DNA of 64,000 nucleotides from positions 62,025,719 to 62,089,718 of the forward strand of contig OY720348.1 in assembly GCA_963082975.1 (NCBI GenBank). The letters run 5' to 3'. The notes under the pieces are model-generated. The model made no database searches. It worked only from the letters and a program-made list of their open reading frames with translations, and was not told the DNA's origin. A program made the translations under genes and the position numbers. Source of the stretch: Labia minor (lineage: Eukaryota; Arthropoda; Insecta; Dermaptera; Spongiphoridae). Position 1 is the first letter of the stretch; every line of letters starts with the position of its first letter. Positions 7,226 through 33,734 of the stretch are shown here, in pieces.

Positions 7226-8231
7226 GGTGATACTTAGAGCCATTTAATTTAATAAAATCTAAAAATGAGTTTTATTCTATGATATTAATTTTGTGTCCAG
7301 ATTGTCCGTAATTCTATAAAACAATTATAATTATTTAACTTAATTTACAGAAATTAAATTTATCCTTCTTGATTGATTTTTTTTTTTTATTATTATTATT
7401 TTATTTATTCAATCTTTTAGAAAATTAAGATAAAACAAAACACTTATTTAAAAAAAAAAAAATTACAAATAAAATAAATTAAAAAATAATCCTAAAAAAT
7501 AAATTAAAAAAAAAAACATGTAAAATTATTTGAACATAATAAATGATTTTCTAGAAATATGCTTTTTGCTGTCAGTCAAACTCTCCGTTGACAATAGAAA
7601 GGATGAAATCCATTTACTGAGTGAAAGTCCAATTAATTGTTATATTGAATGCACACTCATTTGTCCTTTTATTCTTTTGAAGCTAAAAATATTTCATTTC
7701 TCTTTTATAATTTTGAATTTGATAAAGAAAATTTTTATTCGTGTAATATAAAAATGAAATCTCCGTTGTTTTTTTTATATTGGTATATTTATACCTAACC
7801 TACCTAATTCCTCCATTCTCATGTAATTTTATCTTTTTTAAGTATATAAATTTACAGAGATTCTTATTTTTAAATATCTTCAAAATATTTGCGTCCCCTT
7901 AAATAAAAGACGTAGGTTGTCAAATTTCAAAATATATACTCATGAAAATGATAACTACTTTTTCTCTAACGAGAATATATATTAAAATCTCGAATGCCCT
8001 TAAACAAACTTTTTTAATAACTCGATTAAATTAATATTCTACTAATTATTAAATCGACCTGACATTCCTTCTTTTTGACAGTGACTTTACAATTCTAATC
8101 CTCTTATGTTTATCCTTAAATGTCTACCATTTCTGTCTTTGATCTAATTTTTTTTTATTTTATACGATTTACGGAATTAATTTAACCTCCTGTTGCATCT
8201 GTTGAGTTTATCGCATTTTATACGTTTATAG

Positions 8232-8285
8232 GTTCAGCGAATCTGGCAAGGGCGGCGACGGCGGAAGCGACGCGCCTGGTCCCTG
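8232..8285 (+). CDS. CaMKI: CaMKI internal exon (54 nt, symmetric cassette candidate)
   Basis: A short GC-rich island in AT-rich intron, bounded by an acceptor (tttatag) and a strong donor (ctg|gtgagt). Read with one leading base and two trailing bases it encodes FSESGKGGDGGSDAPGPW. The trailing TG plus the first G of the exon at 33578 make TGG, so the join reads GPW-LKHPNIVQ with no frame break. Its position matches the segment between the alpha-C helix (ending VLRR in fly CaMKI, from memory) and the beta-4 strand, where insect CaMKI carries a variable insert also starting FS. The length divides by three and both ends are phase 2, so skipping it keeps the frame. The fit of phase, position and splice sites is strong, but the composition is simple and no transcript was available. 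It could also be an exon used in only some isoforms. Confidence 0.72.
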
Positions 8286-9604
8286 GTGAGTTCTTGTACC
8301 AGAAATTGTCAGCCTTCGCCTGATTGCAGCCTGCAGCCTTTTGTAGCACTGGGCTCGCTGCTCTATCCTCGGTCGCTTCTCACTAACATTAACAATTGAT
8401 GCCTTCTCTCAAGCCCTAACCACTACCTAAAACCTTTAGCAACTTAATCGGATTGTGTAGGGAAGATGCTGGAAATTTAATTCTATCAACATCTCTTGAT
8501 AATGTCTAGTAGCGCTCGACTGTCCTGTCATATTTTTATAGATCTTACCTGCCCCTTATTTAGAAGAATACTGACCAATAATTCTTTGAAAATGTTTCAT
8601 GCATGTTGTTAAACTCAAGATTCAAATTACCAACTATTTAAGAGTTCATTCACAATCAGTTTAACTGCGTTGTTTCCATTTTCAAATAACGGTGTAAAAA
8701 TTTTACATTTATTGAAACGTAGAAGTGTGTATACCTTCTGTTTTTCTAGTCTCATTTCTTATTTAGGATGTACCTGCTTAGAACGGTGCATTTTCCATAA
8801 CCACTTGTTGACATATGATATAACACAGTTTAACTGATTGTATATGATACTCTTATACGTTCCAAAATAAAAATCTCCACTGTTTATATACAAACTCTCC
8901 ATCTACAAACATTCTGCATCTCCATGTTGTAGGAAAACTTGAAAAGATGTACTCTTTACAAATTAAATATCAATTAAAATAATTTCCAAGAATCAATTAG
9001 TTACGTTCAAAAACATGAAATCATTTATGCTAATTAGTAAGTAATATAGGATGTTGAAATACCGAGTTTTGTCATTGTCTCTCCATAGAATTCCTATTCT
9101 AAGGCATGTCTCCTTTTTAAGTTCAACAGAAGGAAAAATGGTGTAGACAATGCGTGTGCTTAATTTTCTAATTATATGAAATAAAAAGATAAAAAAGAAA
9201 TATCAACAAAAGATGCTCTTCTATTATTCAGGACTTTTTTGAAGAATTGTTGAACGATATTTTTCGTTTGATTTGGAGTGTTCATGTTTTTGAAATATTA
9301 TTGAAAAGAAAATCAATTGAATTTTAAGTGGAAATGATTTTCAATGCTAAAAGTTTTTTTTTTCTTTTTACTTCAAACCGTTCATTCAACGAATAGTAAT
9401 TTTAATTCAATAAAAAAATAAATGGATAAAATTTATTAAATTATATACAAAAAATGTTTTTGAAAGATATTTTTAATAGTAAAGGCAGTACAAAATAAAT
9501 TAAAAAGACATTCATTTTCAAATTTAAACGCGATTAATTTGTATTAAAATTTTTTTTTATGAATTCTATTACCGAAAATTATCTAACTGACAATATTATT
9601 ATTA

Positions 9605-10452
9605 AGTTGGAAGAAAAGTCATGCAGGTTTTGATATCTCTACATTTCAACTCATTTTTCTGAATAATAGATACAATAAATATTGGAGAAGAACTTAACGT
9701 TAGCCTACTGCTATTGTGGTTGGTTTGAAGCGCATTGAAAAAGTTAAATGCTCGATAAACCCTTATGATTTTAATGATTAACAAAAATCTTCACATTCGT
9801 AAATTTGTTCTCATCTGTTCTTACGCAACTCTGGCAACGGCTGGCATTACTTATGATGAAAAGTGGATCCTCAACGATAATAAGAAGCACTATGGGTAGT
9901 GTCAAGACTGAGTCACCCAATCAGTTCCAAAAAGTCAATACCCATAAAAAAAAATGGTTACATTGTGGTACGGCTGGTGTCATCCACTCTTTGAAAACTT
10001 GCCAGATTATTACAGCAGAGATCTATTGACAAGAAATCGACTAAATGTACAAAAAATAACGCCAGAATCAGCCGGCATTGCTGAACAAAAGATGGTCGAT
10101 TCACGGCAACGCCCCACGTTTCACAGATCACCACGAATTGGAGACCTAAGTTTCGCCACACCTTCCATACTCTCCTGACCTTTCTCCCACGGTTTTTTTT
10201 TTCAAACACCTGGACAACTTTCTCACACACTCAACAGAATCAGTAAGGAACAGGCAAAAAACACCTTCATCATTTTCATCGAATTCTGAGCACCTAATTT
10301 TTAACTTTAATGGAATCAAAGGGCTTGTCTCAAGTTGGAAAAAATGTGTTTAATCAGATGCAGCTTATTTCAGCTAGATTTGAATGACTATTAAACAAGT
10401 TATTGTGTTTTCAAGTTCACTCCTAAAACCTGCAAAAACTTTCTTTCTAACT
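9605..10452 (+). mobile_element. Internally deleted mariner element
   Basis: It is bounded by TA at 9603-9604 and 10453-10454. The terminal repeats are TTAAGTTGGAAGAAAAG with GCAGGTTTT on the left and, in complement, TTAAGTTAGAAAGAAAG with GCAGGTTTT on the right. The coding relic reads IRKFVLIC, ITYDEKWILNDN, MVTLWYGWCHPLFENLP, RLNVQKITPESAGIAEQK, then GLVSSWKKCV near the end, with frameshifts and stops. DEKWI holds the first catalytic Asp region; the second Asp region (HQDNARPH) is degraded to FHRSPR. It is about 850 bp against a usual 1.3 kb, and the N-terminal DNA-binding part is largely gone. Confidence 0.82.
9790..10370 (+). pseudogene. Mariner transposase pseudogene
   Basis: The coding remains of the element at 9605-10452. 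Overlapping short open frames (9805-10029 and 9954-10178) are pieces of one broken transposase in two frames. There are stops after NKKHYG and after the FATPSILS segment. It cannot encode an active enzyme. Confidence 0.8.
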
Positions 10453-11350
10453 TAATAACTAATTTTAAATAGACTCAAAACAGTTTTAAATTTTTATATA
10501 GTTAACTTTCATTGTTTCAAATATAAGGGAAACAATTAATATATATAAATATAGTAAAATATTATTTTCAATTCAAATTTTTTTAATAATTTCAATTTGA
10601 AATAATAAATATATTACTTTTAATTCCATTAAATTAATTCCATCTATTAGAATTTTACTTATTTTTATTTTTTTATTTGATTTTATTTATTAATTTATTT
10701 ATTTATTTTGGAAAATTCTGGAAATTCAATTGATTCAACCGTAATTTAATATTATATATAAGCACTTTTTAGAAATCAAATAAATAAATTTAACACAAAG
10801 AGGCGATGCGGAAATGTTTTTTTAATTATATATATACCTTTTCCAAGTGTACATCCTTTCACATACAAAGATTAGATTAGATTTTGTGAAACTACCCTTT
10901 ATCTATCCAATAAAAAGCACAATTATATATATATTCAATGCGACACAGAAACAAATGAGAACTTTAGGGAAGCAAACAAAAGAGAATACAACAAAAATTT
11001 TATTAACATCAATTGAACTTTAATAGCTTTGTCTTTGAAAAATAACAAACCAAATTATCAATTTTTACAAATTACTTCTTAGAGATAATGATTGTTTAAG
11101 ATATTTAATATGTTTTAGATTTCTCAATGATTAATGCAATATTTATAAAAAAAAAGAAACCTTCAAAAAGAAAACAAAGTTATTGTCATGAAACTGTATT
11201 CCATACTACATTTCCACTCCTACCATTATTATTACTCAATGGCATGATGGTTAGTTATCATAGACAAGAACAACATCTTAAGGATGTAATTTTCAAAAAT
11301 AGATAATTTAAATTGTTGTTTCTTAAAGATAAATATTGTTTCAATTACTG

Positions 11351-11649
11351 CAGTGGTCTCCAACCTTTCTAAACCGGTGCCCACCTTTTTTTAAAAAAAA
11401 TGATTGCGCCCTCCCTTCTTCAATTTTTGTAATAATCTAATTTCATAAATACTCACATAATATAGTAATTTATTTAATGGGTAAAAAAATAACACACCCA
11501 CACATACTCAATTAAACAAATACATATTATAGATTATTTTAGATTTTAGAAAAAAAATCTTAACAATAATTGTTCTAATACATTCACGCCGCCCTTATAA
11601 CACTCTCGCGCCCCCAGGTTTAGCGCGCCCCACTGGTTGGAAAACACTG
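11351..11649. mobile_element. Non-autonomous hAT element, 299 bp
   Basis: The ends are CAGTGGTCTCCAACC and, in complement, CAGTGTTTTCCAACC (13 of 15 match). An exact 8-bp duplication AATTACTG is at 11343-11350 and 11650-11657. The interior is AT-rich and non-coding, with GCGCCC blocks near both ends. Confidence 0.9.
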
Positions 11650-13146
11650 AATTACTGCCTATAAAATTTATTTTTCTTCATTATTTGTATTCTATTTTAT
11701 TTACAAAACTTTCTCGTTTTATCTGTGTCCCACTGAATATATAAATAATAAATCAATGAATAAATATTTTTCCTCCAAATTGTCAAATCTAGAAAAACGC
11801 AATGATTTTATAAATATTTTTATAATTCTCCAATTATTATAATTAGAAAATAAACAGATTACTATTTAAAAATAAGTTTTAATGAACCTAAATTAATCTT
11901 TAATTGAATTTAATAAAATAATAATTTAATGATCACTAATTGCTCATTAACATTCTATCCAATTATTAAGGTTCAAAGATTTGGTCAATTATTAACATAA
12001 AATTAATATATTATCTAGAAATGCATGTTGAATGGGGACGAACTGGCTTAATTAGAATGACTACTAAATTCTATTAATAAGCCAAACTGCCGAAACTTTA
12101 ATTATTCTTTGTTTTTATTTGTTTATTAGATACCGTAGAATTTAAATAGAAAATGAATTCATATCATATAAATTCATTTTCTATCTACAAATGAATATGG
12201 TAAACAAATTGATCTACAAGCAACTTGTATTATTATGTATTATTATGTCATTTGTATTTCAGCTTTGTGTATGAATGATCATCAAAATTAATTAATATTA
12301 TATCCTTATTTTATTGATGAAAAATTATCAATTCGTTATTTATATCTCATTTATCAGATACAACAAATGGATCATTTTTATAAAAAAAATATTTGCTTTC
12401 TATTTACTATTTAATAAATTAAATAACAACATAAGTAAACATGATGGTTCAAAAATAAAGGTTTAATTTCTACTATTGTATTTGTATGAATTTATAAAGA
12501 GTGTATTCTAATTAGTGAGACAAACTTTTTAACAAAAAATAGAGAATATAAAAAAAAGATTAAAAATTGTATAGGATTTTATTTTTAGGTGCTTTTTAGG
12601 TTCTCAACGTTAAAATTTATAAAACGACAACCTGCTAAGGGAATCTTCGGCACTCCTCACATCTATTCAAGGGTACTTTGCCCCCTGGACCCCTTATGTT
12701 TGTTTTATTGTACACTTTTATTTAATTTTTTTTCCTTTTAAATATTTAACTTTCGATTATGCATATCTATATAGCCTTAGTTAAATGAATATCTTGAAAA
12801 AAGTAATCCAAACTCAAAATTTTGAAATCGGGATTTTAATGTAAGTCCAAATAAAGCAATTAATTTATTGTTTAATTGAAAATTCTTATTAATTTGAAGG
12901 TAAATGCAATGGTTGAGGTATAGGAAAGAACAAAAGTTTTTAGAAAAATTTTGAAAAAATATTAAACAGCGCAATCTGAAACAAGTTTGATACCAGCCAA
13001 AATACTCAGAGTAGTCTAAAGAGTAAGTCTCTGTAGGAAATGATTCGAAATGAATGCCGATTTTCAACAAAATTCATTCATTCCAACATATTTATGGTAT
13101 TTAACACAATATTTATTTAACAATTTTCATGCCGATCGGTTTAAAC

Positions 13147-13452
13147 CGGTGACTCCCAAGGTGGGCGCTACCGCTCCCTCGTGGGTGCTGCAGCGATCCA
13201 GGTGTTCGGTGATGGCCACAGATTCATTTAGAGAAAATTACTTGTATATTATTTTTCTATTCTGAGATCAATAAATAGATACATAAATACAATGTTTCTA
13301 ATAACCTTTAAATATAATATATTTTGCAAATAGGTACATTTATCTTTTTGTTTAATTGTTATTAAACTTAAAAAAGTTAATTTCCAGGGGGGCGCTGAGT
13401 AAATTTTTTTCTGAAAAGGGGGCGCTTGACAAAATAAGCTTGGGAACCACTG
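13147..13452. mobile_element. Non-autonomous hAT element, 306 bp
   Basis: The ends are CGGTGACTCCCAAG and, in complement, CAGTGGTTCCCAAG. The flanks GTTTAAAC (13139-13146) and GTTTAACC (13453-13460) match at 7 of 8 bases. GGGCGCT motifs sit inside both ends. Non-coding. Confidence 0.78.
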
Positions 13453-13455
13453 GTT

Positions 13456-13765
13456 TAACCGTATCAGGGTTTAACTGTTTCAGCACCATCTAGTGTCCAG
13501 TTGAAACAAAATGGATAAGACCAAAATATATTCAGTGTGCTCAACTTCATAAGGATCGGTTTGACGGTATAGAAGTTCATGTACTTCAGTGCCATCTAGT
13601 GATAAGATGAAACAAAGTGGATAAGACCAAAATATTCAGTGTGCTTAACTGCCAATATCTACTAATTTTTATAAAATTATGTTTGACGTTATAGATGTTG
13701 ATGGCTTCATCGCCATCTAGTGTCGAGTTATAATTAAGTTGATACCATATAAACCTTCCCCATCA
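13456..13765 (+). repeat. Degenerate tandem repeat (about 106-121 bp unit, 2.5 copies)
   Basis: Three units start at 13481, 13587 and 13708, each with a CCATCTAGTG core. They continue with GTTGAAACAAAATGGATAAG-like and ACCAAAATATATTCAGTGTG-like sequence in units one and two. GTTTGACGGTATAGA-type sequence precedes units two and three. The repeat directly abuts the hAT element at 13147-13452. Confidence 0.75.
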
Positions 13766-14924
13766 ATATATATATATATATATATATAATCGCGGTCAAA
13801 TTACAGTCTATTGTTTACAAATATACAGACAGACAAACAATCATTTTATATTATAGATTTATAGGACAACAAAACAGACAAATTTCTTTTCTAACATATA
13901 AATATAAAATTTTATTTGATTATTTAAAGATAATTTATAGACACTCTGAAATGATTGTCAAACTCAACGGGGAGCTTTAGATTTTCTTTGTTGAGCTTGA
14001 ATTCTGTCTGACTGTTTGGGTGATTTGAGAGGTAAAATTTACCTGTGCAAAGAAGCTGCTAAGGAACATTTACAATGATTACAATTACAAACACATTTCA
14101 TTTTCCAAAAAAATAATATATATAGGTATATATAAATTTATGAATAAAAAAGTTTTTTTATTTCCAAATTAGATGCTAGTAGGGCTGGTTGCCTAAAGCC
14201 AGGGGATCTCATAAAATTGAATGGATGGATAGAAATGTGGAGTGTTAATTTACATATCGCTAAACTTTCACACCTTCCCACTTAGAAATAAACAAATCAA
14301 TCTCTATAATTATTAAATATTTTATTTTATATTCTTATATAATAAATAATTAATTAATAATATAATAATCAACAAGCATGTTTTTTCCAACAAAAATATA
14401 AATATCAAACTTTGATCAAGAATAATTTTGTATTTATTCTTAGTATTTTTTATGTGGTTAACCAACCAACCTATTAGCAATCCAAAAGACAAAACGATTA
14501 GAGTTTGTAATAACTTGACTAAAAAAGAGGCTGCTCCTATGAATTAAGATAATTTTCTTTATAATTGCAAAGAGAATTCTAATAAGATGACCTTTGAATG
14601 TTCTCCGACTCCTAAATGTCCAGGGAATTGTTATTTATTTTGAAAGCAATATATCCTTTACGAAGAGGGACTGCCTCTCATTATAATTAGGAAAGGTATC
14701 ATTTTTATTTTTTTTTACTAAGAACATTCCATTACCACCCATTTGCATCTTTTGGTAAACAAATATAGCATCTTTTGAGTCAAATTTTTATAATACTAAA
14801 TAATCTATGGAATGCTCTATGATATGATCTTTTCACTTTTTTTTTATGATATTTCGAAAACCTCTGTAAGCGCAAGTTTAAGAAAATTGTGTTTATTTTG
14901 TAAAATGTATAAATAATATGATAT

Positions 14925-14962
14925 GGCGCCACAGGGTGGGAGGCAACAGCGTTGGCTTCATC
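14925..14962 (+). mobile_element. SINE A head fragment
   Basis: GCGCCACAGGGTGGGAGG with a degraded box A region matches the head of SINE A. The rest of a SINE A copy resumes at about 15141, so the two may be halves of one interrupted copy. Confidence 0.5.
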
Positions 14963-15140
14963 CACCCCCCCCCCCTCTATTAATATTTCTGTAATTCCCC
15001 ACCAATAAATAGACTAGGTTTTTTCTTTACATATAGCCTTTTCAAGGTCAATAAGTCAAAAAAAAATATTTCAAAATATGTATAATGTAAATCTAAAAGG
15101 AAATTGTAAATTTATACTAATTATTAACATTAATCATCAA

Positions 15141-15379
15141 TGCTTCTCGTGGTCCCGGTCGGGTTCAAGTCCCGGGCCTTCTCTAACTGGAATCTATGGG
15201 ACGGAGTCAGCCCAGTCCCCAGAATCAAAATTAGGAAGCTACTTGATAAAAAGTAGCGCCTCCGATCAAGAAAATCAAGATAAAGGTAGATTGGACCCTT
15301 TCTACTGATCATATGACACCTAATTGATATAACCTACTTGATAGACGCTGACCTTGCGTAGGATCTACAAAAGTCAGGG
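15141..15379 (+). mobile_element. SINE A copy 1 (body)
   Basis: It has box B (GGTTCAAGTCC at 15163-15173), GACGGAGTCAGCCCAG, AGCTACTTGATAAAAAGTAG, GATCAAGAAAATCAAGATAA and the 3' end CTACAAAAGTCAGGG. The tRNA-like head with box A is missing here. Confidence 0.85.
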
Positions 15380-16228
15380 ATATAAATAATATTTTCAATC
15401 CCTCTCACTTAGATTTATTATTTATTTCAAGCACATTTTATTCTCTCTTTTCAAATCCCACTGGAATATAAGCTTCATCGAATTTATTTATTTTTTTATT
15501 TACCAGTGGTAAATAATTATTTATATATTCCTTTATTTATATTCAATGTACATTTTTGTTAAATTATTTAATTTTATTTTGAGAGGAAAATATATATATA
15601 TATATATATAAGTATATATATTTTATCTTTAAAAAAACAATCGGGAATGAATAAAGGAATTGGCTGTTTTCTTTTCGACTGAATGTTTTCTCATATCATT
15701 TTTTTTTTTTTTTTAATTTATTTTCAACGAGTGTTAAAATTTTTCCTTTTAAGACATCCTGAATCTTCTAAAAAATTATTTATTTTAGTTTCTTTTAAAA
15801 TATGATAAGCTAACGATTTTTCTCTTTTTAATAATAATTCTCGCAACCGAAAATAATCCAATAAATGTTTAACGTAATGAAGAGATTGAAAAGATTGATA
15901 GATGAGTTTATATTATTACTCATTAAACTTTTTCTATTTTATGAAATATAGAATTGAAGAACACATTCTAGAATGAAAGTTAAATGAATAGTGACGTAAA
16001 TAAAGAAAACGCCAGTCTAGCTATTAGCTCAGTTACTTTCTCAACAACAGCATTGATATAACAAACAAAATTAAAGAAAGTAATTTTGAATATCAATTTT
16101 ATTTTAAACGATTGACAGTTACATGATTTTATAGTATAAAAAATTATTTTTTTTTAATTTTGATTCAGATATTGTTGTTGTTGAGAAAGGCACTACGCAA
16201 GGCTGGTCTTCTCTTTTTGCCGGCATTG

Positions 16229-16337
16229 TATAGTGACGGAAAAAAAGTTTAAACGACAAGGGGCAACCAAGCGGTTAAGTCATTGCAATTGCCCGACAAC
16301 ATCGCCCCTGTGGCGATTATATTTTTCTGTCACTGTA
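16229..16337. mobile_element. Tc1/mariner-like mini-MITE
   Basis: 109 bp with inverted ends TATAGTGACGGAAAAA and, in complement, TACAGTGACAGAAAAA, bounded by TA. The inner sequence GACAACATCGCC..GGCGATTATATTTTT resembles a stretch at 45268-45310. Non-coding. Confidence 0.55.
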
Positions 16338-16433
16338 CATTTACGAACAAATATATAATTAAAAGAAAGGAACAAAAAATATTGAATTTTAATAAATTAA
16401 ATAATAAAATTAATCTTTTAATTAAAATAAACC

Positions 16434-16701
16434 CTTGTAGGTCCTACGCAAGGACAACGGTTATCAAGCCAGTTATATCAATTAGGTGTCCTATGATCAG
16501 TAGAACGAGTCCTATCAACCTTTACCTTGATTTTCTTGATTGGAGGCGCTACTTTTTATCAAGTAGCTTTTCCCCAATGTTGATCCCGGAGGCTGGGTTG
16601 ACTCCGTCCCCAGCTAGAGAAATTCCCATTGCCAGGCCCGGGACTCTAACTCAGGACCACGAGAATATGACTAAGTACGCTACCTCCCACTCTGTGTTGC
16701 C
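16434..16701 (-). mobile_element. SINE A copy 2
   Basis: Nearly full length on the minus strand: a head with a degraded box A (TAGCGTACTTAG), box B-like AGTTAGAGTCC, the ACTTGATAAAAAGTAGCG core and the GTCCTTGCGTAGGACC 3' part. No convincing target duplication was seen. Confidence 0.82.
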
Positions 16702-18570
16702 TTTTTTAATTTTTTAATACACAAGATATATATGATTCCGGGATTCACTATGGAATGAAAATGAAGAAAGATCATGTTAAATAACTTCAATGTATCGAAC
16801 GGTAACCCCCCCCCCCTTTCTCTCTCTCTCTCTCTATGTTGGTTTCAATATATGGAAAAGAATGAATGGGATTCCAATCTGCCTTTAACTTTGAACCCGA
16901 TTTTTTTTTTACTGATTCATTCCAATTGGGAGTATAATTCGGAGCATTAGAATGTATTCTTTTCAGATTATAACCAACTCTTCCATTAAACCGTCATAAG
17001 AGATACAGAACAAGAGAGAAGATATTCATTTTAAAGTTTTCATCAAATAGGCTTCATTTTACATGAAATCCGATCAGATTTTAGTTTTTTGTGAAATTTG
17101 TTAATATTTTACCTTGAACGAGATTATATAATTTCTTGAAATGTTACAGTTGGGCTTATAATCTTGATTTAAGAATAAATTCACTTCAAGAGTTACTTCA
17201 AATCTTTGAATATATTATTGCTTTTCCAAAAATGTAGCTGAATGAAGTTCAATTATTGTTAAAAAAATGTTTTTTTTTATTTTATCCCATGACGAAATAT
17301 GTTTATATTTTTTAAAAATCCTAGTTGATTTTTTTTTTGTCTTGATATATTTTTAATTTCCATATTAAATAAAATAAAATTTTATATATATTAATAGTAA
17401 TATATATATGTATATATATATATATATATACTAATAATTATATATCAAATATTTAAAAGCTAGAATAAAAATTGTATATAGAAATATAGAAAGAACATGT
17501 TATAGTATAGATGTAAATTTAAATTTACTTTTTTTTCCTTATTAATAAAATCCTCTTCTGGTTATTAAAAATAATGCTTTGATATATTAATTAATATTTT
17601 ACAACTTTTTTTCTATTTTATATAAATCTCTGTTCTTTTTATAATTAGAATGTTAATAATTTTTTTTTTTATTCTTAAAGAATATTACTATTCCAATTAT
17701 TTGAAATGCTACTTCAACGAACACATCTATTCTAATCACAAATACAATTTAAATAAAAATAGAATGACGAACAATGGCAGAATGATTCAATGTAAATATT
17801 TACACTTGTATAGGTTCCATCATATAGGTGTAGGATTTATTTTGCCCAAGACTCAATGAACCAATATTGAGCAATAAATTATTTACAAACAAACTGAACA
17901 AAAGTTTTATTATTTCCTATTATTCTTTATTTAAATCCTTTCAAATATTTGGATTTTCATGTATCATTTAATTTATTTGCTTACTACAAAAAATAGTTAC
18001 CTTAAAAATTTCGAGTTGTTATATTTTATTTGTGCAAAATTATATAAATTATATAACTAATAAAAAATTAAAAAAAAAAAACAATTAAATAAACATAGAA
18101 ATGCATTAAAAACAGAAAATAATTTTTACCAGAGTATCTTTTAAGATAAACAAAAGAAAAAAAAAATTGAAGTTGGTGAGTTTATTATACAAACAAAACT
18201 TTTTATACAAACAAAACTTTTTTTAAAATAAAAAAAAAATATTTTTTGTTTATTTGCGCATTAGTAAATGTTTAGATATAAGTTAGTTAGTTTTTAATTT
18301 TTTTATTTTATTTTTTTGTTAGATTTAGATTTTTGTAATATTGTGCATTTAAAATTTGTTCCAACCGCTAATGGATATGTTGTAAATGTAACAACCATTT
18401 AAAACGATTAGAACCTTAAAATTTTAACTATTTAATTAATTTATTTTGAATAATGAAGTTAAGAAAAACAAACGTTTTCTTGATTATTTTACAAATAAAA
18501 AAATAAAATATTTCTAAGTTCATGATAGATAATTTTATTATAACATTTAGTATGATGTCGTCATTATATA

Positions 18571-19232
18571 CAGTGGCGTACCTAGGGGGGTGCGGTGGGT
18601 GCGGTCCGCACCGGGCGGCACTTATCTTGGGGCGGCATTTTTTATATTTAGTTATAGTTGTAAAAAGCAACTTATTCATTTCATATTTATTTTTTTTCTT
18701 TCTTGAATAATAAATGATTATTATGATTATTATAAGTTTACTATTTGATTTATATAAATTATGATCAACTATATGATTTCGAATATTATTCCTCGGTGTA
18801 TATAAATGCAATTTAGTGTAAATTTTGAATTCTAATTCCAAGAACAGGATAATAATTTTATTTTATTGTATTCATTAAAATTCGTTGAATTCGTAAACGC
18901 ATCTTTACGATTTTGTTCAGCAATTTTTCCTAACTAAAATTTTTTGATACCAGTTTATAAATGTCATTTCTTTTGAAAAGTTTATATGATTACTTTGAAG
19001 TGATATACCAATATTTTTTAAATCAACGATTTTTCTTTTGAAAAGCAGGGCCGGCGGAAGGCGGTCTGCTAGGTTTAAAATTTACTCTGTGTATTAATTA
19101 ATATTGATTAAATAACTTAATAATTTATTTATGTGCATTGATTTATAAATACCACTATTTGATTGACTTATAATAAAAAGGGCGGCAAACTGGAGATCGC
19201 CCCGGGCGGCAAAAGTTCCAGGTACGCCACTG
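18571..19232. mobile_element. Non-autonomous hAT element, 662 bp
   Basis: The ends are CAGTGGCGTACCT, exact for 13 bases at both termini. An exact 8-bp duplication ATTATATA is at 18563-18570 and 19233-19240. Subterminal GGGCGGCA blocks are on both sides. A minus-strand open frame (18428-18841) and a plus-strand frame cross the left end and are chance frames. No transposase was recognised. Confidence 0.92.
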
Positions 19233-19779
19233 ATTATATAATATATAAATATATTATATATATATATTATTTATGTATATATATATATATATATATTGTA
19301 AGAGAAAAGGGGTTGCAAGCACTTATGGGTGCCGGGTTCGCACTTCTTGTCATCTAAGCTTTGCCAAAGAAAAAGATTTAATATTGTAAATGGATTTAAA
19401 AATATGTCAGGAAAGTATACTTTGATAGGTGTCAGGGGATCTTATATGGTTGATTAGGTGATAGAAGCACATCAGGAGATTTGGGAAGACTTTCAATTAG
19501 AAAACAGCATATAATCCGATCATATACCATTAGTATTGAGTAAGAAATAACAGTCATGTCAATCCAAAAATAATAAAAAATAAAAATAAAAAAATCGCAT
19601 CGAGGAAAATGTGGGCCGCTATTTGCTAAATTCATCCTTACAATTGTATATATCTGTAAATTATATAAATATCTGCTTTTCTATATATAAACAGATTTTT
19701 TCATTATTACTATTGAATTTATATCGACTTAAATCTCGAATTTTCAACATTATAATCAGTATGGGAGGAAATTTTAATA

Positions 19780-20120
19780 TATACTATATATATATATATG
19801 TATATAAAGCAAAATATTTAATTAAATATAAGTAAGTATATATATATACTAGTATATATAAATATAATTTCAAAAAGATATTTAATTACAAGATGAAAAA
19901 TGTTGACAATAAAAAATTTAGTAATTTTAATATATAAAATGGGTAACGGGTAGATTCTTTTCTATATAATCCCAATTTATTTATCATTATAAATATCCTA
20001 TATATAAAGCAAAAAATATTATAATATAATTAAATATAAGTATATGTATATAATTTCAAAAAAATATTAAATTACAAAATGAAAAATGCTGACAATAAAA
20101 TATATAGTAATTTTAATATA
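19780..20120 (+). repeat. AT-rich module duplicated in tandem before B1/E1
   Basis: Two diverged copies of a unit (TATATAAAGCAAAATATTTA, ATATAATTTCAAAAAGATAT, GAAAAATGTTGACAATAAAA). They are split by a 5' fragment of family E (GGGTAACGGGTAGATTCTTT at about 19941). The second unit also precedes the B4/E2 copy at 47900-48068. Confidence 0.65.
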
Positions 20121-20126
20121 TAAAAA

Positions 20127-20601
20127 TCTGGAGTGTCTCCACTCGACTATCTCGTAAATTTGAATTGGATTAAATAACATATATTATATTTCGATAAAAT
20201 TTAATTTATTAAATTATAAATTAAAATTAATAAATAATATTTATTATACCAGCGCGTGTTTGACGTTTTGTTGGTGGCACCAAGTCAGTCCAATTAATTT
20301 GGATACTTTCAGCGATTCAATCAAGCTGAAATTCTATATATAGCATTTTTTACAATTTGATGATCATGGTAAAAACTATCAAACATATATCTTTATTTTT
20401 ACGGTCAGTTTTTACCCTCTTCCGGATGAGCTACAGTTCTCAAAAGTTGATAGAAAACTTACCAATTTCGAAACACAGCGACATTTTTTCAACCTTACAA
20501 AGTGAAAATAACTCAGGGACCTCCAAAACGTATAAAAACATCAAAATTTCGACATCGAAAATTTTCGTGATCGCAATACTATCTCTGGCGAGATAGTAAA
20601 A
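20127..20601 (+). repeat. Family B copy 1 (Helentron/DINE-1-like candidate)
   Basis: The 5' signature is TCTGGAGTGTCTCCACTCGA (GAGTG/CACTC hairpin), then CTATCTCGTAAATTTG. The body includes CCAGCGCGTGTTTG, AAGCTGAAATTCTATATATA, GTTGATAGAAAAC and ACGTATAAAAACATCAAAAT. The 3' end is ACTATCTCTGGCGAGATAGT, an 8-bp-stem hairpin, then AAAA. The 5' ACTATCTCG and the complement of the 3' end form subterminal inverted repeats. A central part including the (AC)n is deleted here. Non-coding; the frame at 20440-20691 (-) is a by-product. Confidence 0.7.
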
Positions 20602-21640
20602 ATCATGATTAAAATGGGTAACGGGTAGATTCTTTTCTATAATCCCAATAGAAAAGATTTCTACTTCAGGGAGTAGCGTCCCTGCCCTCACGTGAGCTCA
20701 TGATTTCTTCTACCTCGCTCTTCTACACCGAGGAATCATGTCGTTTACCCGTTAACTACTTTCAATCCATTCCCTTACTCTTCCCCCCTCCCCTCCCTTG
20801 ATCCTTCAAAAAATCAAGTTTATTTGGATGAAGGAGAATATCTAGTATAGATTCATTAAAAAGAAAAAAAAATTAAATCTTGTCTCTATATAGGAGACTC
20901 TCGAGAGTCCCCTATATATATTTGAATAAACCCCCCGATGGGGGGTTTATTCAAATATATCCAGATTACGTCACTTTTTCGACTAGCAAAACCCCATATA
21001 TTCACGAGTGAGACATTTGTTATGAGTGCCTCTGAGAGGACCCACCTCTCCACGCTTCTTACTATTAACAAATTTGGAACTCATATATATATTATATTCT
21101 TTGGATAATTTTAAGAACGGATTTAGTCGATTTTGTTCACTTTATGGAAATTTATGACTAAATATTTTAACATTCTAACCAGAGCAAATGATTGAATAGA
21201 ATTTTAGCCAGATTTTCAATAAAATCGTTTTTTAGTTAAATAAAATTGGAATTTATACTTAATTTTTAATTTGTTAAATTTTTACACATTCAAACAACAT
21301 TTCCTTATAACAATAGATAAAAGAAATGCCAACATATTCGTCATAAAACGTAGATTCATTTTTACTACCATTATATAATTTTACGATGCTTCCTTAATTA
21401 AATATTAATTAATTAATTTTGACAGTTTTATGAGAATGTCCGCCACGTTGGTTGGCCGCGCATTTCAAACACAATTATTTAATTTGGTCAAATTATTCTT
21501 TGTTTGTGTTATCCATTTTTTCTTAAAGTCTAGATCTTATTTCACCACCTCTTGTATTTATATATATATTTACAAATTAGTACCCCGATCCCGAGCAGCC
21601 TCTAATTACGTATATATATATATATTTGAATAATGACTTT
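20602..21640 (+). repeat. Family E copy 1 (young, near-identical to 48615-49668)
   Basis: It starts ATCATGATTAAAATGGGTAA, followed by GATTCTTTTCTATAATCCCA, a polypyrimidine block (CCCCCCTCCCCTCCC) and the palindrome GACTCTCGAGAGTC at 20896-20909. A perfect hairpin follows at 20916-20960, and it ends past CCGCCACGTTGGTTGGCCGC. Comparison with 48615 onward shows a constant offset of 28013 and only a handful of substitutions up to about 21515; similarity then decays. No gene was recognised: the 61-aa minus-strand frame is conserved only because the DNA is. Confidence 0.75.
20916..20960. repeat. Perfect 21-bp-stem hairpin in family E
   Basis: The left arm 20916-20936 (ends AATAAACCCCCC) and right arm 20940-20960 (starts GGGGGGTTTATT) are exact complements with a GAT loop. 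The same hairpin is at 48929-48973. It is absent from the older E copy at 55195-55990. Confidence 0.9.
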
Positions 21641-22739
21641 ATTCATTTATTTAAAATTAACAATGTTTTATTTCAAAATTTTATTAATTAGAGAATCTAA
21701 CTCATTTTTTTTCGTGAATATTTCCGTCCTTATTATTTATATTAGAAGATATACTTATATGTATAGGTTTCCACATGTTTGAACATTCTTTTTATAAGTT
21801 CAAAAATCAGATATATATTTTTTAATACGTCATGGTAATTTATTTGAATAAAAAATTTAATTGTAACGATTAATATATATATATATATATATATATATGT
21901 ATTAACAAATAAATGAATTAATTATAATATAAATTCGTGTAAAACTTTTAATTATTCGTACATTTAAATTTTTAATTTTAATATCCATATTAATCAATTA
22001 AATATACTTGAAATTTATTTATTTATTCGAAAAATTTTTTGATATAATTTGATTAAATTTATAGTGGATGAATTATGAAAATGAGAAGATTTTTTTTAAA
22101 CCTTATAAATATATACTAATAATTTTAATAAATATTGATATTCTTAATATTCATATAATATATATATATTTCCAAGTTAGATTGATAAACGACTTAAATC
22201 ATTAACTTTGGCATCCTTTAATAGTTATTAAATCTTGTTCTATTAATTATTTAATAGAAAACTAAAACTAAAAATTATTTTAATCTAATATAAATTCTCT
22301 AGAATTCGATTTTTCTTTTAGATACTCTAAACCAATGAATTTAATATATGAAAAGAAAAGGATATGTGAATGAGATTTTAAAATATCATGTCCAGGTGTT
22401 ATATTATATATTGTAATCGGTTAATTATGTTCCTGAATTTTTCTGTTGTAATTTGTATTTCTAATCAGTGGTATTAATACAAAATTTTCGAATCGAACTT
22501 TTGTAATAAATTCAGGAGTTTAAAATTTTTCATAGAAAATTGAATACGGTTCATTTCTGACAAAACACATTTTTATCCAGTTTTAGTGATTCTCTGTTAG
22601 AATTCTTTATCATTATAAAAATTCTTATAATTAATTCTTAATTTAAGTCTCAATTGGGCTTAAGCTACTTTCAAAATAAACGATTCAATTATAGAACTAA
22701 CTCTGTAAACTTATTTGTCCAGAATGATAGTATTTACTC

Positions 22740-23075
22740 AAAATTTAAGTAAACTTAAAGGCTTTATTGATAGATAGACGAGCCCGCAAAAGGTGTTTCC
22801 AATTTAAATTTAAACTGTATTTGTAACTAACTTCATAATGTCACAGACATCACATACATAAATACATACGAGGGAAATTATTATTATTATAGATAACTTG
22901 AAGTTGTACATGGAGCTACGGATAACCCAGCCCCTAGCATTTATGGCGCCCTGGGTAATAGAATAAATTCCTCTTCCTATATTCGTAAAATTTATATTGC
23001 ATTCATAACCAAAATGCCGCCCTTCAGATTTGCCGTCCCGGGCAAATGTCTGTTTTATCCTCCACTAGAGTGGGT
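22740..23075 (+). repeat. Repeat block preceding LINE tail 1
   Basis: AAGGCTTTATTGATAGATA, GGATAACCCAG, CTATATTCGTAAAATTTAT, ATAACCAAAATGCCG and the CAGATTTGCC..CGGGCAAATG stretch recur in the same order at 49940-50150. Part of the block (CCTATATTC onward) also appears at 47703-47835. The GC-rich CCCGGGCAAATG block looks like a transposon end, but its family was not identified. Confidence 0.55.
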
Positions 23076-23099
23076 CCTGACGTTAGGTTTATTTACTTC

Positions 23100-23385
23100 T
23101 ACCGTTTTTCCTTTTACGTTTTCTCGATGACGTTTTCCTATAAACCCAACTTTTGGAAATTCGAAGAGCAATCGTAAAAATATTTTGGTGGGGAAACCGA
23201 GTAGGAAACGCCCGCTGGGAAGAGCAAGGAGGCGGTGGGGGGTGGATCGTGTAGAGACGTGAGAGAGATGGGAGAGGGTCGGGTTTGGAGGGTTGTGGCT
23301 CAGAGTAGGGATACTTGGAGAAGTGTGGTTGCTGCGGTCAAGAACTTTCGAGTTCCGTAAAGCCACAGAGAAACAGAGAGAAGAG
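23100..23385 (+). mobile_element. LINE 3' coding tail, copy 1 (degenerate)
   Basis: The plus strand reads LVGKPSRKRPLGRARRRW with frameshifts, then REMGEGRVWR, SRDTWRSVVAAVKNFRVP and a stop followed by SHRET. The pattern GRP..RW..D..RD...MG....W...AQDRDTWR is the C-terminal end of many non-LTR retrotransposon reverse transcriptases (RTE/Jockey-type). The minus-strand frame at 23055-23366 is its shadow. No 5' part is present. Confidence 0.7.
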
Positions 23386-25202
23386 CAATGGTACTAGATA
23401 GGTTCACCATTAAAATTTTTCTCCCAGATTTGTATTTTAACGAAACTATTTATTTTTTATACATATCTAATTATAATTATAAATTTAAAATCCAAATTTC
23501 ATATATGAAAAGTTAAACCTGTAGGTATTTTTTAAAAAATTCTAACTGATGAAAAAAAAAAATATTTATAATACTAATAATTACAATAATATAATGTTAT
23601 TCTTATACCAATTAGATAAAATAAAAGAATTGTTTAAAATTCAAAATCATTGAAATTTTGAAAATAAAAATAATAATACAAAAAAAAAATAGATTCGAAA
23701 ATTGATTAGAAAATAAATAATCGACACAGTAATACACACACAAAAAAAAATAGAAATACTTCTTAGTGTGGTTATCCAAACCATATTTTAAAATAATATT
23801 CTAAAAAAGATCAACTTTTAAAAATAATGATTGATTTGAAAGTAGCATGATTTATTTCATCTCCAAACGTATTTATAAAATCGAGGCGGTTCGTAGTTGA
23901 AAATTGGTTAAAAGGTAAACCAATTGGGAAACGACTGGTTGGTAGAACAAGCATACGATGATGAAATGTTAGACATGAGGGAATAATGAAAAAAATATGA
24001 ATTAGATCGATGTGGTTCTGAATAGGAACAGATGTAGGAATGCTCCTAATTCAAATAAAAATGATCTGGTTCATTAATACTACAGAGATAGGTAATGTAA
24101 AATTTTAAAATCCAACAGAACAAATATTTCAATTTTTAAATTTAAATTCTTATTTATCGTTCTTATATTTCTTTTCAAATATGAAAAGATTTTGAAATAT
24201 TAATTTATTTTGAATTCGATTATTAGATTTCTCTGGATATTCAAATGAAATCCAATTATTCAACCGTGAAACATTCAATTAAATTCTTTTTGTATATTCT
24301 AAAAAGTTATTCAAGTGACTTACCCTGAAAATCCCTTTCCCTTTGAGATTGCTAGTCACTTTCCAAAGGAACCGTGATGACTAATCAACAAACTTCTCCA
24401 TTGAGAAATTCCATTTCGTTATACCTAAATATTATTCCCTTCAATTGAACCAACCCTTCAACAACCACTACACTTCACCCACCATATATTAATATGTTTC
24501 AATCTAAATTTACCGATAGAGCTAACTTATTATTTTAGCTCAACTCAAAATACATACTCCATTTTCAATTAGAATTTGTTTTCATTCACAAAATAAGTTT
24601 GTTTCTTAACAGAAATGCTAATAAATCATTTCAAAATTTCCGTTTGAATTGATTTATAATATTACTAATATTTGTATAAATTCAAATATTCAATAAAATT
24701 TTTTTTTTTTTATATAAAATAATAATATTAAAATTTATTCAAAATTGTAATGGTGTAAATTTTCGATTTAAATTAAAAAAAAAACGTACGTTTTTTTAAT
24801 TTACTTTTCTTTTTTACCTCTGTATAAAATTTAGAATTTGTGAATATAAAACGATATATTTAGTTAAAAATAATTACACTAAAAAAATTAAAGTTGGAAT
24901 AAGAATTGACTACTTGAATTGAAGGCAAATACTTTTTTATCTTCCTAGCCTAACTCATGAAGAGATTCTGAATAATATATATTAATTGAATCGTGTTAAT
25001 TCAAAATATTCATTGTTACCAAACCAAATTTTTCAATATCTGAAAATAATTTGTTTTCCAGGACATTGAATCTTTTTTATAGGCAATCAATGTTTTGAGG
25101 AGTGGACAGTCTTCTATGTAGAAATGACTTTTACCTTGAGAAAACTAACAACTCTTAATAAAAATATGTGTTTGCTAGTAATTTACTGTATTGAACTATA
25201 TA

Positions 25203-25484
25203 GAAGAGAACACTGTTTATATTTACATTCGGTATTTTGGTAGGCAAATCACAGGATGTTGGCAATGGAACATTGCTGAGATAAAGACAGGCAATGCATT
25301 TTCTCAATATCTGGGATGTATTTTAATATCTTTAAGATCCTATTAAATCACAATTTAGTGGAAATACCTCGAAATTCGAAATAGTTCATATTTTTTCCAA
25401 AAATTAATCGGTTTTCACAATCATTAGTAATCTGTCACCCTGCTAGTTTCTTGCCTACCAGTGACGTCAGCTTATTCTCTTCTA
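25203..25484. mobile_element. MITE family I, copy 1
   Basis: Inverted ends GAAGAGAACA and, in complement, GAAGAGAATA next to TA dinucleotides. The interior reads GGTATTTTGGTAGGCAAATC, ACAGGATGTTGGCAATGGAA, TTCTTGCCTACCAGTGACGT. Copies are at 28686-28943 and (inverted, interrupted) 39700-40868. Confidence 0.65.
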
Positions 25485-25736
25485 TAGCTATGTGCTACAT
25501 TTGAACTTAATCGGAGGACCATTCAGAAAAGAAGACGCATTCTCCTTTATAAAACAAATATATAGGTATCTATATAATTGATTTAGGAAAAGATCAAAGA
25601 AAATTATTTTGCTATGACTTGAACAATTAGCGAGTTTGAAATTAAAATCACAATAATGAACAGACATTAAGGGACCCCTAGTCATTTAAAATTACATTCT
25701 ATTTGGGAACCGCATTCATTTAGAAATTTTGGTAGA

Positions 25737-26021
25737 ATAAAAAAAACCTCTGACTTTTGTACGTCCCACACCAGAACAACGCCTATCAAGTCGGTTATAT
25801 CAATTAAGGGTCGTATGATAAGTAGAACGGGTCCTATCAACCTTTACCTTGATTTTCTTGATCGGAGGTGCTACTTTTTATCAAGTAGCTTCCCAATTTT
25901 GATCCCTGAGTTTGGGTTGACTCCGTCCCATATACCCTAACTTCCTAACTAGAGAAAATCCCAGGCCCGGGACTACGGGAATGTGAGCCAGCCAAGATGT
26001 CACCTACCCTGTGGCGCCTTC
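25737..26021 (-). mobile_element. SINE A copy 3 with 10-bp target duplication
   Basis: Minus strand: a GGCGCCACAGGGTAGGTGAC head, ACTTGATAAAAAGTAGCACC core and AAAAGTCAGAGGTTTTTTTT tail. The flanks TTTTGGTAGA at 25727-25736 and 26022-26031 are exact. Box A is degraded. Confidence 0.88.
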
Positions 26022-27073
26022 TTTTGGTAGATAATCGAAACAATTTTTTTTTTTAAGTACTTTTGAGTTTTTAGTAATAGACTATTGTGACCCACACACA
26101 CAAAAGGCATTTTATGATTTCTTCATTGAAAATTTTTTTAGAATAAAAGAAGAGGAATAGTAAATGTTTGTCTTGGATGATTTATTGGGATATTTAATGA
26201 AAGTGATTTGTTCCTTACTTTTATTCCGTGAAGGGTGCTTGTGCAATAAAAGTTGATGGCAATGCATGCATGGTAAAGGCGCTGGGTTAGTATAAGCAGA
26301 TAGAAAAAAAATCAGATCAACAACTTTATTACATGTACAATCAGATGTTTTTATTTCCAGCAGTTATTTATCAATGTTATTAAGAACATTCTTATAGCAA
26401 ATAATCATTTAATGTTTATTAATCATTACTAGATAAATTATTACTCTGAAAATAAATAAACAAACATTTTATTTAGAAACAATTTATAGAAATACTTTAC
26501 CAATTTTCAGGTGGGTTTTCATCATCCCTTTAAATAATTAATAAAAATTCTTTATATTATTTTACCTGGAATTTTGATCCAGCTGATATCATATGAATTA
26601 AAAATTGATTATCACTGATCCGCTTATATCGATTATAAATTTAATTAATTATAATTGACTTTATACTTTTTTTTATTTGAATTCTTATTTCATTTTTTAA
26701 ATATTTTATATAAAGGATTAATTTATAATTTTATAATTAAATATATATAAAGAAAATATTTTAAAATTCAATGTATATAAAATAATTTCATAATTAATAA
26801 AAAAAAACTTGATTTAAATATAATAGTCTCTATTATTAATCAATATTTAATTGGATAATACAATATACTCGTAATATATTTTTCTTATATAAAAATTTTC
26901 TAAATAAATTGTTTTTTTTTCTCTGAAACCGCACTAAAATTTTTATAAAATATGATATATTCGTTTTTGTATTCCATAAATAATGGGTTTAGTCAGCAAT
27001 TATTTTTATTTTTTATTTCCTATTATAATACAATTGTACAAATCCAAATTTCACAAAAAAAAAATAATAAAAT

Positions 27074-27583
27074 TTGTTTACAAACGGGGAAGCTTCAGGG
27101 ATTTTGATGAAACTTTGCCAGTGGATCCCTTTTTTAATTCCAAAGAAAACTTTCCTTATGCAATATTTCTCGGTCTCTTCTAGTTTACGAGATAAAAATT
27201 ATTAAAGTTTGACAGATAAATTAGTTATCAATGAACAGCCATTTAGTAATGTTTTATTGATTAATTCACTAAATATTCACTTATTCACTAATTTTCGGTT
27301 TGGATAAAGAATAATTATTTAATTAATTATTTTTTTAATTTTCATATATTCAAACCGAACTGAAAAAAACAGAAAATTAGTGATGCCCTCTGCTGGCCTA
27401 ATGAATAAAACATGGTATCTAAATAGAATATCAATGGATTTATATGCAATATTTAATAATTTTTATCTCATAAACTAGAAGAGACCTAGAAATATTGCAT
27501 AAAAAAAGTTTATTTGGAATTAGAAAACGAATCCGCTGGCAAAGTTTCATTCAAATCTCTGAAGCTTCCTGGTTTGTAAACAA
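27074..27583. repeat. Palindromic element G2
   Basis: The clearest ends of family G: TTGTTTACAAAC on the left and its complement GTTTGTAAACAA on the right. Inside them are GGGAAGCTTCAGGGATTTTG and CAAATCTCTGAAGCTTCC, then the GCCAGTGGATCCC arm and its partner. The 510-bp length is close to G1. A transcript through this intron could fold into a long hairpin. Confidence 0.75.
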
Positions 27584-27614
27584 TTACCAAAAATGACATT
27601 AAAATACTTTAAAA

Positions 27615-27957
27615 CATATGTTCCCAAATTTTTTTTGTTTCGTAGACCCCTTGCCATGTTTTTCGGTTTTGAGTAGACCCCCTAAATTCATTTTGATTTT
27701 TTATAAAAAAAAAATAGAGCCTTAAAGAAAAAGAAAAAAATGTTTCAAAAGTCATGTCGGAAAAACGATTTACCTTTTCTTTTTTTAAGAGACATGTTCA
27801 AAAAATCAATGTCGGAAAACAATTTACCTTTTTTTTAGAGCCGGGAAAACACGTGGACCCCCATAGACCCCCGAAGACCCCCATTTTCATTTCATGGACC
27901 CCCAAATTTGTTATTCGCTGCCGTGGGGGTCTATATAGACCACTTTGGGCACCTATG
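27615..27957. mobile_element. Non-autonomous hAT element, 343 bp
   Basis: The ends are CATATGTTCCCAAA and, in complement, CATAGGTGCCCAAA (12 of 14 match). The flanks CTTTAAAA (27607-27614) and CTTTAAAC (27958-27965) match at 7 of 8. The interior has repeated GACCCCC blocks near both ends. The frame at 27754-27963 is a by-product. Confidence 0.75.
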
Positions 27958-28685
27958 CTTTAAACTGTAATTTTCAAAAGGATTTATTTAAAAACAATTT
28001 GATTTCAAGCGCAAACACTGCCCCTCCTCCCACTTACTCATATATACATATTTTGTACCGCGTTGTTGGGGGAAAAAAGAGGGAATATTGTATATAAAGG
28101 AAGATGTTTAAAAATATTTGAAGAGTAGGTGAGAATTATTCAAGGATAGATGGTAGAGATATTTATAAATCACTTCTGCCCCTTTCTATTCCTATGCACA
28201 GGAAATGATTCTAACTGAATTGCAAGAGAAAATTATACCCCTCTTATTTGCAGATTGAATTGAATCAAATGAGATGTGCGAATTATCATAACTTCAATGG
28301 ATATCGAAGAAATTCAAATTTCCATTCATTTTCCAACTTTAACTAAACCAATCCCATTTGCAGGTTTGAGGAATGTGATTCAAGTTCACGAGCACCAAAG
28401 AAATATTAATATTTTCTATTGTAATGAGATAAATATAGTATAATATTGTATTATTTTTATCATGTTATTTGATCTAATGTATATAAAATAGAATTGTCGG
28501 GTTATCTGACTTCCCCCTTCTCACTCATTTTCACGAATTATCGCTTTTACATACAATACATTTACATTTTATTATATTAAATTTTAAGTATACTAAGAAT
28601 TTATATTTTTATATTCCTTGTCAAAAGGGGTAGGGACGTATTCTCTGTATGACAAAGGGTAAAATTCTATGGCACTTTGTTTCTA

Positions 28686-28943
28686 TAGGAGAGAACAATG
28701 TTTATAATTATATCCGGTATTTTGGTAGGCAAATCACAGGATGTTGGCAATGGAACTTTGCTCAGATAAGGGGAGGCAATGAATATTCACAGAATTTGGG
28801 ACTGATTAATTAACAGTTTACTGGAAATACTTTGAAATTCGAAATAGTTCATATTTTTTGCAAAAACTAATAAGTATTCACAATCATTGGTAATTGGGCA
28901 ACCCTACTGGTTTCTTGCCTGTCAGTGACGTATTCTTTCTTAT
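28686..28943. mobile_element. MITE family I, copy 2
   Basis: Same interior blocks as copy 1 (GGTATTTTGGTAGGCAAATC, GGATGTTGGCAATGGAAC, GGTTTCTTGCCTGTCAGTGA), same orientation, with ends eroded but still near TA. Confidence 0.65.
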
Positions 28944-29533
28944 AAACTATTATAGATTTTAAAGAAATAATTAATTTCGATGTTTTTTGAATGTCTATTG
29001 ACAAAGACAATAACCTAGTTTAAATTAAGCATATATATATATATATATATTGTGTTAAATAGTAATCGACATAATAAAAATATATACATTATTGTACACA
29101 CACATTATTTGTATAACTTTTGTTTATCACTTGATTAGTTGCAAAAGAATTTAACAACAATTTTTTTTTTCTTATATTAAAATAATAATTTCATATTTAT
29201 AAATTAATTTTTTAATTTTTTTCTATTTGTTTTTTTTTTTTTTTTATTCCATAAGAAAAAATAATTCATTTAATTTATTTTATATTCATGAAGAAATTAA
29301 GTAAAAACTAATTCATTTTTCTGATTAAATATTTCACTTGGATAATGTCAACAATTTTAATTAATTGCTAAATGTTTTTTTTTTCTTTTTCAAAAACAAA
29401 ATAAAAAAAGTTAAATAAACATAATATAAACCCATTTCTGATTATATAAACGTGCTTATGAACTGATTACCCTGTTATATTATTTCAATTAACATAGAAT
29501 AAAAAATACTTTTTATATACATATAGGATTATA

Positions 29534-30887: not shown

Positions 30888-31619
30888 TAATATAAATTCA
30901 TTTTAAAACTAACTAGAAATTAAAATATAAATATTATTCAGTATTTATTAAATAAATACTTCTTTACGTTAATATGCCTGCAGATCGTTGAAAAGAGGGG
31001 AAAGCCAATTCAAATTAATGAAGTGGCAATTCTATAATTAACAAATACCTAATATTTGCTGCTTTTTTTACAATTGTTTATTAATTTTCTATTGCGTGTG
31101 GATATGTGTTAAAATATTATTATAATTTTACTATGTCATTCTATAGAGAGAGGTGTTTATTTATGAAATTCTTTATTTTGAAAATAAAACCCATATTTTT
31201 TAAGCTTTAATATAATTTTCTTATAAGGCTATATGATTTATTTTGCTATAAATGGATTACCTGTGAAATAGAGAAAGAGATAAAGAATAAATGGGCTTTG
31301 AGATTTTCTTTCTCTTACAATTGAATTTGGTGAAGAAAAAACAAATTATAGCGTTAGTGTGTTATATATTTTTGTTTAGAAAGTCCTTTGTCTGAGTAGT
31401 ATAGTAGTATAGTAACAATAAAAAAAAATAATAAAAATACTTTCGTTGGAGATTGAAAGTGAAAGGTCCAATTCCTTGACAGTTAATCTGCATTGTTTCA
31501 TATTCTACAAAATTTATATTATTTAATTTTATTTATTCTATTTAATTTAAACTAGTGTTTACGAAACTGACAATTCAAAAAGAAATGAAAAAGTGTATTT
31601 AAAAGATTAATATATATAA

Positions 31620-31899: not shown

Positions 31900-32036
31900 T
31901 TTTATATATATAAATATAAATTAATCATATATCTTAGAATATAGATTCTTCCCCTTAAAAAGTTCTTAATATGTGAATAAAATATAAATATAAAATTCCT
32001 AATCAATATCAGAAAGATATATATATATATATATAG

Positions 32037-33652: not shown

Positions 33653-33734
33653 GTGAGTATCTAATTATTCTATCTCTAATTACTCCCTTTTTTAGCATTT
33701 CTTATGTCCTAGTATATTATATAGTACATGATTC

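Follow-up and report, generated by a model that had tools for sequence, protein, structure and literature searches.

A cassette exon at the alphaC-beta4 joint of CaMKI in Labia minor looks like the orthologue of an exon annotated in many insects

The window, that is the whole 64,000-nt stretch of Labia minor DNA that was analysed, contains exons of a CaMKI gene (Table 1). CaMKI exons were sought by tblastn, with fly and human CaMKI as queries. Among the matches listed, 26 CaMKI proteins are identical to the two kinase exons in 70 of 71 residues, and by this agreement the gene is an insect CaMKI orthologue. The search gave no further significant CaMKI exon in the 25,292-nt intron and no upstream CaMKI exon within the window, and neither the activation-loop Thr nor the C-terminal autoinhibitory/CaM-binding segment gave a significant match within the 64 kb. 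Since the upstream exon lies outside the window, we infer the splice into VLRR from relatives, in which that exon ends in ENEIKVLRR or similar. The window is AT-rich (GC 0.27) and holds no RNA families or tRNAs. It also contains an interspersed sequence in three copies, at 63708-63947 (+), 32421-32648 (+) and 23176-23371 (-), the latter two being 81-82% identical to the first; they are probably fragments of one mobile-element family.

Table 1. CaMKI exons, introns and splice sites in the Labia minor window.
Feature	Position	Strand	Description	Basis
Cassette-exon acceptor AG (3' splice site)	8230..8231	+		sequence and PWM rank
Cassette exon	8232..8285	+	54 nt, phase 2/2, encodes FSESGKGGDGGSDAPGPW	sequence and homologous inserts
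Consensus 5' splice site gtgagt	8286..8291	+		sequence and PWM rank
Intron	8286..33577	+	25,292 nt, separates the cassette exon from the HPNIV exon	
CaMKI exon (HPNIV exon)	33578..33652	+	75 nt, LKHPNIVQLLETFEDKHKVYLVMEL, phase 2 in and 2 out, begins at the alphaC-beta4 junction	
Intron	33653..63195	+	29,543 nt, separates the 75-nt and 139-nt exons	
CaMKI exon	63196..63334	+	139 nt, 46 residues, matches relatives' CaMKI	tblastn

The cassette exon reads AG/G TTC AGC ... CCC TG/gtgagt. Its first G closes the upstream codon; then come 17 codons and a final TG, which the G of 33578 turns into TGG (W), the last codon of the cassette exon, and LKHPNIV comes next. The HPNIV exon likewise opens with a codon-closing G, and skipping of the cassette exon would be frame-neutral. 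An earlier, sequence-only reading had described a 54-nt island with an acceptor, a consensus donor and phase 2 at both ends, joined in frame to LKHPNIV. Each of these features is exact in the sequence, the exon being a multiple of 3 that joins before LxHPNIV in phase 2/2. The same reading had called the encoded loop Gly/Asp-rich, which is true of the Labia minor insert (6 G and 2 D among the 18 residues of FSESGKGGDGGSDAPGPW) but does not hold as a conserved property. On the plus strand of the window, approximate weight matrices rate the donor as strong, at rank 3 among 2504 GT sites, and the acceptor as weak, at rank 241 among 2583 AG sites. For comparison, on the same approximate scale the acceptor of the 139-nt exon ranks 195, which is little better, and that of the HPNIV exon 17, which is strong. 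The pyrimidine tract before the cassette-exon acceptor is interrupted (0.65 pyrimidine at -20 to -4). The exon has a GC content of 0.70, a value that just three other places in the window reach over 54 bases. Just past the donor, GC is 0.53 in 8286-8385 and then 0.37 across the next 100 bases. The hexamer TGCATG, which we take to be an Rbfox-type motif, occurs at 8600, 315 nt downstream of the exon; there are six on the plus strand of the window, and this one may be there by chance.

The sequence-only reading had called for an alignment of CaMKI from relatives, and this alignment places an insert at the same joint. Three protein searches, with the best 120 rows taken from each, gave 324 proteins, 322 of which were parsed (P0103 and P0217 were left out), and an insert was defined as lying after VL[RK][RK] and before [LF]xH[PS]NI. 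Among the matches listed, 171 of the 322 proteins carry an insert at the VL[RK]R^LxHPNIV joint and 151 do not. The distinct inserts number 116, and 113 of them start with F-S. An insert-centred query itself favours FS inserts, which the full-length query, not centred on the insert, does not; the FS start is found in 65 of the 68 distinct inserts from the full-length search and in all 48 first found by the insert-centred one, again among the matches listed. The three listed exceptions, P0035, P0037 and P0079, may be gene-model errors or alternative exons. FS inserts in this set span 11-26 residues (n=113), and the Labia minor insert, with 18 residues, falls inside that range.

Chance can be set against these counts. 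Of the AG...GTRAGT intervals with a length of 30-120 nt, 11 stay open in phase 2/2 within the first 33,577 bases; among these, the cassette exon alone has an FS start. Under a looser rule that admits any GTR donor, there are 211 candidate intervals in the same bases, 3 of them with an FS start. A chance open frame was rejected on position, phase and FS start, and a chance origin is hardly to be expected, given that 113 of the relatives' 116 distinct inserts among the matches listed share these features. Judged by everything that can be read from the DNA itself, the exon is real. Two intervals in the first 33.6 kb, 11618-11686 and 16567-16674, were considered as a second FS-type cassette exon and rejected, as they qualify under the loose donor rule only and are unlike the inserts by eye. 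A repeat-derived exon was likewise rejected: region 8232-8500 has no convincing second copy in the window, where its best other match covers 30 bases at 80% identity (E 0.047) and lies outside the exon. The window yielded no second, tandem HPNIV exon of the Macrobrachium kind.

R (59) or W (43) closes 102 distinct inserts out of the 116 among the matches listed, and the Labia minor insert, FSES...W, has both the FS start and such an end. The R/W end may reflect splicing, as the last codon is split NN/G in the window and AGG and TGG would suit a donor; the FS start is without such a ready splicing explanation. Residue 3 of the FS group is A (59/113) or E (45/113), and later positions diverge. 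Across the 116 interiors listed, 8% of residues are hydrophobic and 85 inserts are net negative. When aligned to 117 inserts, of which P0170 is a parsing artefact, the Labia minor insert beats at least 495 of its 500 shuffled versions for 76 of them, whereas the interiors exceed 95% of shuffles in only 14 of 117, so that the insert interior is barely conserved.

That the exon is optional at the alphaC/beta4 junction, and equivalent to the variable insert of the fly, had also been proposed, and annotated isoform pairs in six insect orders strongly support this. From species names we chose by hand 28 species that have one protein with the insert and one without, a list that is perhaps not exhaustive; the paired sequences were taken from databases, and many are automatic predictions. 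In 24 of the 28 the insert is the sole difference between the two proteins over 265 residues. Ungapped counts for the others are 261/265 (P0149/P0259), 209/265 (P0151/P0270), 205/265 (P0034/P0059) and 12/248 (P0145/P0244), the last being out of register, with P0145 beginning only 28 residues before the joint. By our own assignment from names, the paired species belong to Diptera (8), Odonata (1), Blattodea (2), Orthoptera (1), Hemiptera (1) and Hymenoptera (15). Unpaired entries with the insert among the matches listed come from Ephemeroptera, Phasmatodea, Thysanoptera, Trichoptera, Lepidoptera, Coleoptera (Carabus) and Neuroptera. The Labia minor exon thus looks like the orthologue, as far as its sequence goes, of one already annotated across many insects, mayflies, cockroaches and flies among them.

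No FS insert is seen in the named ticks, scorpion, horseshoe crab, spider, shrimps, crabs and krill among the matches listed, where the search giving the chelicerate and crustacean rows used an insert-free query that favours proteins without the insert. The insert-centred search listed no named chelicerate and one crustacean (P0170, in which the HPNIV exon is doubled and an FS insert is lacking). This distribution suggests that the cassette exon arose in early insects; springtails, silverfish, branchiopods and myriapods do not occur by name among the matches listed. In the same matches, bees and several polyphagan beetles occur only without the insert, and ants, wasps, sawflies and Carabus carry it; the bees and those beetles probably lost it independently. 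The bees in question are Apis, Bombus, Osmia and Andrena, and the beetles Aethina, Nicrophorus and Anoplophora. Since these groups are listed only without the insert, it is probably dispensable.

Alternatively, the exon could be constitutive in Labia minor, or never used. Its acceptor is weak by the approximate matrix, and all the Lepidoptera and mosquitoes named among the matches listed carry the insert, either of which would fit such a state; the open frame, the strong donor and the FS start argue against a decayed exon. We regard a constitutive or unused exon as quite unlikely, and consider the cassette exon likely to be optional in Labia minor.

The closest known case is that of Drosophila. 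The CaMKI of Drosophila sechellia is annotated as X1 with the insert FSANHFDGKCLNGTR and X2 without it, an orthologous exon difference, and both forms are paired in 8 Drosophila species. The joint is the same (VLRR^LTHPNIV), and the exon is frame-neutral with an FS start; however, the Drosophila insert has 15 residues and ends in R, whereas that of Labia minor has 18, is Gly/Asp-rich and ends in W. The best match in the region search (E 2.3e-21) is CaMKI isoform X1 of the mayfly Cloeon dipterum (P0121), whose insert FSENRGGADGEDDGPR, of 16 residues, is Gly/Asp-rich too; its isoform without the insert is not among the matches listed. A special relation to mayflies is not established, because in insert-only alignment an army-ant insert (P0117) scores slightly higher, 37 versus 35 for P0121. 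Mammalian CaMK1D aligns over the kinase domain and the alphaC-HPN region (best E 9.6e-147) but has no insert in the two aligned chains (LRKIKHENIV).

At 54 nt the exon exceeds the usual length limits of microexons. Its likeness to the fly neuronal microexons of the eMIC programme (PMC8797185) is that those are also short, frame-neutral, protein-modifying exons; the main text of that paper makes no mention of CaMKI. CaMKI is among the genes differentially spliced in Drosophila DN1 clock neurons, with the event unnamed in the accessible part of that report (PMC6025963). A 2025 loss-of-function study of Drosophila CaMKI describes sleep, flight and synaptic phenotypes, and its accessible part holds no discussion of splice isoforms (PMC12467204). 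Among the titles and abstracts listed, none concerns the insert or its function.

AlphaFold models of two relatives were compared, the mayfly P0121 with the insert and Periplaneta P0206 without it, each built on alignments of 60 close relatives. The kinase fold was recovered, and both models are weak (mean pLDDT 59.2 for P0121 and 58.6 for P0206). In P0121 the alphaC helix, 71-84, ends on F84, the first insert residue, and a loop runs to 107 before beta4, with pLDDT below 50 at residues 88-93. In P0206 the helix, 68-80, ends at the second Arg, followed by a loop at 81-88 with an isolated bridge and by beta4 from 89. In these weak models the alphaC-beta4 loop lengthens from about 8 residues without the insert to about 23 with it. 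A flexible, low-confidence region between alphaC and beta4 is suggested; it is only suggested because both models are weak overall.

We favor the following explanation, to which we give a probability of about 0.6, with the rival readings partly overlapping it: an orthologous cassette exon, included in one isoform and skipped in the other, adds a flexible loop that modulates the regulation of CaMKI. The parts differ in strength. The exon is almost certainly, by its sequence, the orthologue of the insect CaMKI alphaC-beta4 cassette exon, and for a regulatory effect of the insert on the kinase we see an even chance. Inclusion would place 18 mostly hydrophilic residues after alphaC, which ends in ...VLRR in relatives, and ahead of the HPN motif that precedes beta4; skipping would restore ...VLRR-LKHPNIV in frame. 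Labia minor would make both isoforms. The insert would form a surface loop that the fold tolerates, with catalysis still possible, and could modulate alphaC mobility, the handling of calmodulin or CaMKK, or partner binding; it may also present a docking or phosphorylation site at the hinge. The sequence-only reading had proposed that such an optional exon tunes activation or partner binding, and this, like skipping in Labia minor itself, is an inference. A flexible loop at the alphaC-beta4 hinge is the most economical mechanism, although a benign spacer would look identical, the interior being barely conserved.

The constant part of the insert is FS, which either mimics the displaced L-T or L-K, or completes V-L-R-R-F-S. 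If it is a mimic, FS would be a structural anchor, a buried hydrophobic residue with a polar cap, and the rest a tolerated spacer of little function. F-S does stand where proteins without the insert have L-T (105/151) or L-K (36/151) after VLRR among the matches listed, the weak insert model lengthens the helix by just one residue, to F84, and the interior is variable and hydrophilic. A mere spacer, however, leaves unexplained why an optional exon is kept in many orders, and why it begins with F-S rather than L-T; we find this reading doubtful.

If FS instead completes V-L-R-R-F-S at the end of alphaC, the exon would carry a splice-controlled candidate site for a basophilic kinase, with a hydrophobic residue at -5 and Arg at -3/-2. 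This site would exist only in the included isoform, could be used by CaMKI itself, PKA or a relative, and would alter alphaC and activity. Among the matches listed, Arg stands at -2 in 113 of 113 FS inserts, and -3 is Arg in 89 and Lys in 24, the latter weakening the case; later positions drift. The PKA site has the form R-R-x-S, with which V-L-R-R-F-S would agree, given VLRR upstream. The preference of worm CMK-1 and mammalian CaMK, PhiXRXX(S/T)XXXPhi in the accessible part of PMC12043318, shares the Arg at -3. The full consensus is not matched: -5 and -3 fit only if VLRR precedes, and a hydrophobic +4 is confined to 12 of the 113 inserts, each an FSANHF/FSANNF insert of the Drosophila type, with Lys in Labia minor. 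In addition, RR is also conserved without the insert (VLRR in 150 of 151 such rows among the matches listed), so that only FS is specific, and a Ser at the helix end may be inaccessible. We consider this reading unlikely. Its fullest form, a splicing switch older than the split of mayflies, dragonflies and neopterans that installs a regulatable alphaC-beta4 loop with a putative RRFS phosphosite, is distinctly improbable; if true, neurons could choose by splicing whether CaMKI answers a second basophilic kinase or itself, at a site of regulation outside the activation loop.

A further comparison is with the exon-20 insertions of EGFR, by which the insert would shift the kinase to an active alphaC-in state. 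The two sites may match residue by residue. What keeps CaMKI inactive is its C-terminal regulatory segment and not an EGFR-type dimer switch, a difference in autoinhibition that speaks against the analogy. The likeness is one of site: in EGFR, D770insNPG sits where alphaC ends and the alphaC-beta4 loop starts, and simulations point to a stabilising effect of such insertions on the active state (PMC7961794). The EGFR insertions are somatic, short, oncogenic and not spliced, in an unrelated kinase group, and the two studied there have three residues versus 11-26 in the FS inserts. We think it very improbable that the insect exon works in this way. The hinge, where short insertions activate EGFR, can nevertheless control activity in another kinase. 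A natural, optional and apparently long-lived insertion at roughly this hinge, together with fly genetics, makes its effect on a CaM kinase testable, and the part worth following is that FS stays fixed at a control hinge while the remaining loop drifts.

Chrysoperla carnea has two inserts at one joint, FNFNETNHKILSR in P0079 (X3) and FSEQTQ... in P0081 (X1), possibly a second alternative exon or a retained-intron model. P0170, CaMKI isoform X2 of Macrobrachium rosenbergii, carries tandem versions of the HPNIV exon, LQHPNIVQLMETYEDREHVYLIIEL and LTHPNIVQLLETFEDKHKVYLVMEL, which could represent mutually exclusive exons of prawns or an error in the gene model.
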